A DNA stretch of 64,000 nt from Dehalococcoidia bacterium (GTDB taxonomy: Bacteria; Chloroflexota; Dehalococcoidia; DSTF01; JACRBR01): NCBI GenBank assembly GCA_015478665.1, contig JADMII010000001.1, forward strand, positions 62,001 to 126,000, read 5' to 3'. The stretch's first letter is position 1, and each line of letters begins with the position of its first letter. The translations under genes were made by a program, and so were the position numbers. Positions 22,969 to 25,892 of the stretch are shown piece after piece. The notes under the pieces are model-generated. The model worked only from the letters and a program-made list of their open reading frames with translations. It was not told where the DNA came from and made no database searches.

Positions 22969-23820
22969 ATGAATCTCGACGCACTCCCGTACACATCGTT
23001 CATCGTGCTGGTCGAATTTTGCGTCGGCAGCCTGCTGGTCTGCGTCTTCGCCGACTGGCGCGGACGCGTGGCGCCGAGCTTCGTGAAGTTCAGCGCCGGC
23101 ATGGTCGCCGTGGCGGCGGTCGTGCTGCTGCTGAACTCGCTCGCGCTCGACCCGCGTTCGCTGATCGGCGGCTATCACCTCGACGATGGCCTCGCCCGCT
23201 GGCTGAAGGTGCTCTCGGCCGTCTTCCTCGTCGCCACCCTGCCCTACAACTGGTCGGTGCTGCGCGAGGACAAGCGTGCGTCGCTGTACAGCGGCCTCGT
23301 CGCGCTGGCCGCCGGCATCGTGCTCGTCGGCGTCACCTCGTACTACGTGAGCCTGCCGACCTGGGGCTTCGCCGGCGCCTTCCTCAGCCTCCTTGCGGGC
23401 ACGCTCGCCGTCGGCGCCGTCGTGCTTGCGATGACGCTCGGTCACTGGTACCTGGTGACGCCGCGGCTGCCGAAGCAGCCCCTCGAAGAGCTGACGCTGC
23501 TGCTCGTCGCCGCCATCGCGCTGCAGACGCTCCTGCTCGTGCTCAACGTCGCCATCCCCGCGCGCGAGGTCCCCTCGGCGACGGCGTTCCTCGGCTCGAA
23601 GACGCTCGGAAGCAACCCTGCGTTCTGGCTGCGCATCGTCATCGGCCTCGCCTTCCCGGCGGCACTCGGTTCGATGTCGTGGATGTCGAGCAAGGGCTAC
23701 CCGGCGAACGAGAACGCGATGATGGCAGCGACCGGCCTCCTCTACATCGCCGTCGGCGCCGTCCTCGTCGGTGAAGTGCTCGCCCGCGGGCTGATGTTCC
23801 TCACCGGCGTCCCGGTCTGA
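22969..23820 (+). CDS. polytopic membrane protein of unknown function
   Basis: 283 residues with about eight hydrophobic segments spread over the whole length and short polar loops. A charged-aromatic patch, LGHWYLVTPRLPKQPLEEL, sits in the middle. The helix count and the GHWYL patch are somewhat like NrfD/DmsC-type quinol-interacting anchors, but no partner subunit genes are nearby, so I name no function. ATG at 22969 follows a TACCAT hexamer by nine bases. It ends 9 bases before the phosphatase fragment. Confidence 0.7.
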   Translation: MNLDALPYTSFIVLVEFCVGSLLVCVFADWRGRVAPSFVKFSAGMVAVAAVVLLLNSLALDPRSLIGGYHLDDGLARWLKVLSAVFLVATLPYNWSVLREDKRASLYSGLVALAAGIVLVGVTSYYVSLPTWGFAGAFLSLLAGTLAVGAVVLAMTLGHWYLVTPRLPKQPLEELTLLLVAAIALQTLLLVLNVAIPAREVPSATAFLGSKTLGSNPAFWLRIVIGLAFPAALGSMSWMSSKGYPANENAMMAATGLLYIAVGAVLVGEVLARGLMFLTGVPV

Positions 23821-23829
23821 CCGCGAGGG

Positions 23830-24102
23830 ATGGCGCGCGTCTACCTCATCCGGCATGCCTCCCCGCGCATCGAACCCGGCCTGCCGCCGGCGCGCTGGCG
23901 GCTCTCGCCGTACGGCATCGAAGAGTCGCGCCGGCTCGCGGCGGCGGCCGCCGACAGCCGGGGCATCGAAGCGCTCTACAGCAGCGTCAAGGCGAAGGCG
24001 ACGGCGACGGCAGCGATCATCGCACTGGCGAGGGGCGCGTGTGGGGTAGTCGGGCTGGAGAACCGGGGCGCCTTCCTGTCCAACGCCGCACCGCCCGGGT
24101 GA
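23830..24102 (+). pseudogene. histidine phosphatase (SixA-like) N-terminal fragment
   Basis: 90 codons carrying the phosphoglycerate mutase-like start VYLIRHASPRIEPG, with the RH catalytic motif, and SPYGIEESRRL and ALYSSVKAKATATA. Normal members need another 60-100 residues with a second catalytic His; here the frame ends in unrelated sequence at 24102 and no continuation is found in the other frames. Probably truncated and inactive. Confidence 0.6.
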
Positions 24103-24122: not shown

Positions 24123-24713
24123 TCAGTGGCGCGCCTCCGGCAGATCGACGTCCACGCGCAGCGCGTCGAAACGCGCTGCCGTCGGGGCATCGACGTCGGT
24201 GTGGAATGTGGCGTGGACGCGGTTCACGAGGTTCGCCGTGCCGACGCTCATGCACAGCTCGAAGATCTCCTTCTGCGAGAAGCGCGCGGCGAGCGCGTCC
24301 CACAACGCATCGGGCACGCTCACCTGCTCTGTCAGGCTGTCCGCGTACGTGAGGACGAGGCGATCCGTCTCGTCGAAGCAGGGCGCGTTGCGCCAGTCGG
24401 CGAGCCACGAGAGTTCTTCATCGGACAGCCCTGCGCTTGAACCAAGCGCCAGATGCGTCGGCACTCAGTAGTGGCAGCGGTTGAGCTGCGACGAGCGCAG
24501 ATATGCCAGCTCGCGCAGCCGCGGCGCCAGACTGTTGCGCAGGTAGAGCCCGCGGACCAGCGCGTCGAACGCATCGAGGAAGTCGCGGTGGTTGGCGAGG
24601 ATCTTGCGGACGTTGAGCTGCGCGTCGGGGCCGCCGAAGGCGTCGTACAGCGCCCGGATCTCCGGCGATGCGTCTTCGTACTCGACCGGCCGCACGCGTG
24701 ACATCTGCCGCAC
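24123..24713 (-). CDS. carboxymuconolactone decarboxylase/AhpD-like protein, candidate selenoprotein
   Basis: Two halves in the same frame, 24713-24468 and 24464-24123, are separated by one TGA (24467-24465). Read through, they give a complete 196-residue CMD/AhpD-fold protein. The TGA sits exactly where the family has the second cysteine of its redox motif: N-R-C80-H-Y-[TGA 83]-V-P-T-H87-LALG, so the residue would be selenocysteine (CxxU). A 7-bp perfect hairpin with a GTT loop follows 15 bases after the TGA. Sec-containing AhpD-like proteins are a known bacterial selenoprotein group; such proteins reduce peroxides or other thiol-linked substrates. The alternative is a TGC/TGT-to-TGA mutation or a sequencing error. 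selA/selB/selC are not in this window. Confidence 0.75.
24431..24452 (-). promoter_or_regulatory. candidate bacterial SECIS hairpin
   Basis: In the message, GCGCTTG (24449-24443), loop GTT (24442-24440) and CAAGCGC (24439-24433) form a perfect 7-bp stem. Two more pairs (24452-24451 with 24432-24431) are possible with G at 24450 bulged. The loop begins G-U and its first G is 23 bases after the TGA, within the spacing described for bacterial SECIS elements (about 16-37). Confidence 0.65.
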
Positions 24714-24770: not shown

Positions 24771-25748
24771 CTACGGTCGCGGCAGCTGCGCCAGCACCTC
24801 GTCCGCCTCGCGCATGATCTCGTCGATGATGGCGGCCGCCGGCTTCACGTCGCGCACGAGCCCCGACGCCTGGCCGGCGTACGCGCTCTGCGCGCGCGCC
24901 GGCGCTTCCTGCGGCACGGTCGCTTCCGCGCGGATCGCGGCGATCTGCTCCCGCAGTTCCGCCTCGCGTCCGTGCCATTCGGCGGCGAACTCCGTGCGTA
25001 CCGTGCGGCCGTGGATCCACTCCGGCCACGGCCACGGGATGCCATCGACGATGTCGAAGACATCGGTCCAGATGGTGTCGTCCGCGGTTGCCGCGAGGAT
25101 CCGCTCGCGATGCTGATACGCGGGCGGCTCCGACTCCTCGGCCGCAACGAAGCGCGTGCCCATGATCACGCCCTGGGCGCCGAGCGCCAGCGCCGCCACG
25201 AGGCCGCGGCCATCGGCGATGCCGCCCGCGGCCAGCACCGGTACGCCCGCGGCGGTGTCGACGGCCTGCGGAACGAGCGCCATCGTCGCGACGCTGCCGG
25301 TGTGGCCGCCCGCCTCGCCGCCCTGCGCGATGATCACGTCGACGCCGGCCGCGGCCGCCTGCCTCGCCTGCGCCACCGTCTGCACCTGGTGCAGGACGAT
25401 GATGCCGGCGTCCTTCGCGCGGCGGACGTACGGCTGGGCGTCGCCGAATGTGAAGGTCACCGACGGCACCCGCTCTTCGATGCAGACATCGAGCAGCTGC
25501 GGCAGCGCCGGCAGGATGTGCACCCAGAGGTTGACGCTGAACGGATGCCCGGTGAGCTCTCGCGTGCGCCGGATATCATCGCGCAGGCCTGCCGGGCCAC
25601 GACGGCTGACGCCGCCGAGGCCGCCGAGACCGCCCGCGTTCGCGACGGCGGCGGCGAGCGCCGGTCCCGCCGTGCCGCCCGCCATGCCGGCGTTGCCGAC
25701 GGGCCGTTCGATGCGGAGCAGGTCGCAGACCGCTGTGTGCAGCTGCAT
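24771..25748 (-). CDS. nitronate monooxygenase-like flavoprotein (second copy)
   Basis: 325 residues of the same TIM-barrel family as 17917-19089: VNLWVHILPALP, AQGGEAGGHTGSVATMALVP, AAGGIADGRGLVAALALGAQ and VIMGTRFVAAEES. The N-terminal GNAGMAGGTAGPALA replaces the usual QAPMAG block. Start set at the ATG at 25748 right before the conserved domain. The substrate is unknown. It begins divergently from plsY, with about 145 bases between. Confidence 0.84.
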   Translation of the reverse strand: MQLHTAVCDLLRIERPVGNAGMAGGTAGPALAAAVANAGGLGGLGGVSRRGPAGLRDDIRRTRELTGHPFSVNLWVHILPALPQLLDVCIEERVPSVTFTFGDAQPYVRRAKDAGIIVLHQVQTVAQARQAAAAGVDVIIAQGGEAGGHTGSVATMALVPQAVDTAAGVPVLAAGGIADGRGLVAALALGAQGVIMGTRFVAAEESEPPAYQHRERILAATADDTIWTDVFDIVDGIPWPWPEWIHGRTVRTEFAAEWHGREAELREQIAAIRAEATVPQEAPARAQSAYAGQASGLVRDVKPAAAIIDEIMREADEVLAQLPRP

Positions 25749-25892
25749 CAGACGTCGTCCCCCAACCCGCGGAGCGCCCGCGGCAGACTCCCTGTGATGG
25801 TGCTGCTGCAACTATATCCGGCGGTGGAACGCGCTCCCATTGCGCCGGGCGCTGCATGCTGCTACGAATCGGACGAGGCAAGGAGGCAGCGC

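Follow-up and report, generated by a model that had tools for sequence, protein, structure and literature searches.

A predicted AhpD-like selenoprotein with a UGA codon in its redox motif in a Dehalococcoidia genome

The minus-strand gene at 24123-24704 of the window, by which we mean the whole 64,000-nucleotide stretch of Dehalococcoidia DNA analysed here, almost certainly encodes an AhpD-like/CMD superfamily selenoprotein in which the UGA at codon 80 is read as selenocysteine (Sec). This reading, put forward in a preliminary description of the same DNA, is supported by the selenocysteine machinery of the genome, by a column of TGA codons shared among 30 homologues, and by a downstream hairpin that is conserved with a compensatory change. 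Standard gene callers break or shorten the gene at the TGA, an annotation that the conservation of the TGA and of the hairpin corrects.

Translation of the whole frame (24713-24123, minus strand) revealed a single internal stop, the TGA at 24467-24465, with a second TGA at 24125-24123 as the true terminator; as first described, the internal TGA falls exactly on the second residue of the CxxC redox motif (CHY-U-VPTH). Counted from a GTG at 24713 the motif reads C80-H-Y-U83-VPT-H87, matching the numbering originally given (C80-H-Y-TGA-xxx-H87), but the ATG at 24704 is the better start, because the starts of the closest homologues (M[AS]R or M[AG]R types) align there and an SD-like GGAGG lies upstream of it. 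From this ATG the protein has 193 residues and the motif becomes Cys77-His-Tyr-U80-Val-Pro-Thr-His84; the codon of Cys77, the presumed resolving residue of CxxU, lies at 24474-24476 on the minus strand, in a column invariant among 24 Sec homologues. An FMN-dependent NMO/FabK-like gene (24771-25811) precedes the Sec gene on the same strand, at a distance of 66 nt from the start. No gene neighbourhood is conserved between the window and the closest homologue of the Sec gene, L024, which has a cupin-like gene upstream by sequence reading, and since the NMO/FabK-like pairing is not kept near L024 we can name no partner for the Sec gene. On the opposite strand, 23830-24102 holds a histidine-phosphatase-like ORF of 90 aa that matches the Pfam model over its initial third only and is probably truncated or frameshifted.

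We then turn to the homologues, among which L024 comes from a different family of the class; at 63% identity to the window protein, it carries TGA at the same codon and keeps CHY-TGA-VPTH. Upstream and downstream of the TGA the two are about equally similar (48/79 and 66/102 identical residues, respectively). Of 120 aligned homologues, 58 show Cys at the Sec column, 30 have TGA (counting the window gene) and the remaining 32 have Glu, Gly, Lys or Val, bearing out the expectation that relatives would show Cys here. Only one other in-frame TGA occurs within the aligned domains; it sits in a single row, 2 residues short of the row's C-terminal end. TGA-bearing homologues occur in other families, in other classes and in a second phylum, and across 400 genomes of the phylum one TGA is present in a large proportion of the best matches. 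In a maximum-likelihood tree the window gene groups with L024, L106 and L119 in a four-member clade made up entirely of Sec genes (support 100/98), with further Sec clades elsewhere and at least 3 label changes forced by well-supported branches. An orthologue was not seen in the seven family-mates searched, some of whose assemblies are incomplete (72-97%), and the distribution of the gene is patchy in this respect. Separately, five homologues listed as having a TAG or TAA in frame (L151-L155) were considered as UAG-Sec genes and ruled out: in four the stops lie only at the gene end, and in L152 the TAG stands just before the likely start.

The hairpin, GCGCTTG-GTT-CAAGCGC at 24433-24449 on the minus strand, begins 15 nt after the TGA and may be drawn either as a perfect 7-bp stem with a GTT loop or as a 6-bp stem with a 5-nt loop (GGTTC), its loop G at +22/+23; the stem, loop, spacing and first loop G at +23 of the preliminary description are all confirmed. 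Under a strict rule (a perfect 7-bp Watson-Crick stem and a loop of 3-6 nt that opens with G at +16 to +28), such a hairpin follows 0.65% of positions across the GC-rich window by chance; under lenient rules that allow GU pairs and looser loops, one follows 8% of positions and appears in 23% of synonymous recodings of the gene. RNA folding gave the hairpin region no excess of energy over shuffles (MFE z = 0.22), and with that value and the lenient chance rate we reject hairpin stability as stand-alone evidence. Because the energy of the hairpin alone is not significant, the proof of the Sec reading is comparative. Hairpins with a G loop, a stem of at least 5 bp and a loop start at +17 to +24 occur in 29/30 Sec homologues, where the start lies 18-23 nt after the TGA, in 4/58 Cys homologues and in 2/32 others, and 7-bp stems in 18/30, 0/58 and 0/32, respectively; as the Sec homologues are related, these counts are non-independent events, and Fisher p values overstate their independence. 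L024 has the same 7-bp hairpin as the window gene, a T-A pair being replaced by C-G in a compensatory manner. All four members of the all-Sec clade pair the 6-bp core in full, two pairs having changed on both sides, and no slid control paired in more than 54% of cells; the covariation score, computed with only four sequences, was matched by 58/500 shuffles. The hairpin is weak evidence when taken alone and draws its significance from conservation in relatives.

These comparisons bear directly on whether the TGA is simply damage, that is, whether the gene is a pseudogene or its Cys codon was altered by a sequencing error or a random nonsense mutation. The assembly is a draft in 66 contigs and a change from Cys to TGA is a single-base event, yet independent genomes from other families, from other classes and from a second phylum keep the TGA, at one column only, the frame downstream of it is intact and equally conserved, and the hairpin is conserved as well. 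L024, L106 and L119 refute such damage in practice, and we regard it as very improbable.

Slightly less probable again is that the UGA serves mainly as a selenium-dependent truncation switch, the conserved product being the truncated N-terminal part or a mixture under regulation and not a constitutive full-length selenoenzyme. In any UGA-Sec gene termination naturally competes with the insertion of Sec, which lends the idea some general plausibility; against it, the 79-residue product shows no sign of a separate function, the halves on either side of the UGA are about equally conserved, and the redox motif straddles the UGA itself.

Full-length decoding with Sec would draw on machinery that the genome (2.67 Mb, 98.9% complete) carries in full: selA, selB, selC and selD, which the preliminary description had named as the genes to look for, are all present. 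Only matches above curated cut-offs were counted, because related-family controls match weakly in many genomes, as expected of EF-Tu-like and tRNA-like matches. In a profile search of the genome, selA scored 525 bits (cut-off 268) and selD 352 bits (cut-off 125), while SelB is full-length (611 aa) with its GTPase, beta-barrel, wing-2 and wing-3 domains, including the SECIS-binding winged helices. The tRNA-Sec gene (selC; L016:6422-6519) has anticodon TCA and scores 66.4 bits, and ARAGORN agrees. It is located at G000:C26:61422, on the same contig as the window, ends 486 nt before window position 1 and lies ~24.6 kb from the Sec gene. The selD reading frame itself carries a TGA (SCAG-U-AGK), making SelD of this genome a predicted selenoprotein in its own right (L019 around 1531 on the plus strand; G000:C9:119223-120158). 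Formate dehydrogenase alpha was ruled out as a further Sec gene of the genome, no family member exceeding the cut-off and none carrying a TGA. A general reassignment of TGA in this organism, for instance to Trp or Gly, would account for an in-frame TGA but has a negligible probability, given that the Sec gene itself terminates at TGA, which therefore still serves as a stop here, that the neighbour at 22969-23820 also ends at TGA, that the main alternative at the column is Cys and not Trp or Gly, and that a dedicated tRNA-Sec with a TCA anticodon and SelB are present.

With the UGA translated as Sec, the protein matches PF02627 (CMD) at 57.2 bits, above the gathering threshold of 23, and the AhpD core domain model TIGR00778 at 37.7 bits, above the cut-off of 27.8. 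An AlphaFold2 model built from 24 Sec homologues reached a mean pLDDT of 92.8, and its best PDB matches are PA0269 and AhpD proteins, with peroxidase-related proteins matching as well. The AhpD-like relay E-x11-C-x-x-C/U-x3-H is present as E65, C77, Y79, U80 and H84, which corresponds at identical spacing to the five residues of the proton relay proposed for Pseudomonas aeruginosa PA0269 (Glu36, Cys48, Tyr50, Cys51, His55; PMC3141380), so that Cys51 of PA0269 is the counterpart of Sec80. The fold is shared with PA0269 and with Mycobacterium tuberculosis AhpD; both have Cys at the Sec position, and the enzymatic data there concern Cys proteins. Debrominase Bmp8 has the same fold too (TM-score 0.79), at an identity of 16-18%.

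Judging from its fold and motif, the enzyme would most probably reduce peroxides or disulfides, as a thiol/selenol peroxidase or oxidoreductase. In the mechanism that we propose, SelB and tRNA-Sec(UCA) would decode the UGA at codon 80 as Sec, guided by the hairpin 15 nt downstream, and the UGA at the 3' end of the gene would bring about ordinary termination. The product would adopt an all-helical AhpD fold with the relay Glu65-Cys77-Tyr79-Sec80-His84. Within it, the selenolate of Sec80 is most likely the attacking (peroxidatic) residue, acting on a peroxide or a disulfide; Cys77 would resolve Sec80 as a Se-S bond, and a cellular thiol reductant would then recycle that bond.

Selenoproteins of this kind have been on record since 2005, when CxxU proteins of the Sargasso Sea were found to include 27 AhpD-like (COG2128) and 4 CMD-domain sequences (PMC1088965); both groups are listed in reviews of 2022 (PMC9312934) and 2026 (PMC13188914). 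The preliminary description was right that AhpD-like Sec proteins were already known, but its suggestion that a CMD-branch member from this lineage would be new does not hold, as CMD (PF02627) proteins with CxxU were published in that same 2005 study and are widespread in the phylum. With the AhpD-like selenoproteins of COG2128/TIGR01926 the window protein shares the AhpD fold, CxxU and a UGA followed by a bacterial SECIS; it nevertheless scores only 43.8 bits against TIGR01926 (peroxidase-related), below the cut-off of 81.8, and belongs to a subclade of its own, CxYU-[VI]PTH. With the CMD-domain selenoproteins it shares CxxU and the PF02627 match.

None of three curated NCBIfam (seleno)protein models of the fold is reached. 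The best NCBIfam match, NF053654 (YciW-related), extends over nearly the full length of the protein at 58.1 bits, below its equivalog cut-off of 310; NF041238 (AhpD-related CFYUT) gives 14.2 bits, below its cut-off of 175, and the remaining model 12 of 110 bits. Across the phylum, AhpD-like selenoproteins are abundant and diverse and include several branches of Sec members only; the one to which the window gene belongs stays well short of the curated (seleno)protein models checked. The novelty is limited, the kind being known and frequent in the phylum; what remains is the all-Sec subclade CxYU-[VI]PTH, with 4 members and no curated model among those searched. It is conceivable, if on balance rather doubtful, that this group (window, L024, L106 and L119) represents a small uncurated AhpD-like subfamily, all of whose known members use Sec, perhaps with a specialized substrate such as an organic hydroperoxide, or with a role in reductive dehalogenation as in Bmp8.

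The wider tree contains further variation at the active site. A separate Sec clade (L121, L122, L123, L124, L126, L131 and L133) has the motif CPFU-MD[TI]N, with the SECIS loop nearer the TGA (+18/+19) and without the His that normally follows the motif. Two Sec AhpD-like paralogues from different clades, L024 and L114, occur together in G041, a genome of the class; L114 is nearer to NF053654 (147.6 bits) than the window protein is. In a large sister clade (L025-L047 and others), Glu, or else Gly, Lys or Val, stands in place of Cys/Sec (xxYE...H), such that a redox residue was apparently lost to replacement; this clade includes the homologues found in the window's own genus and family.
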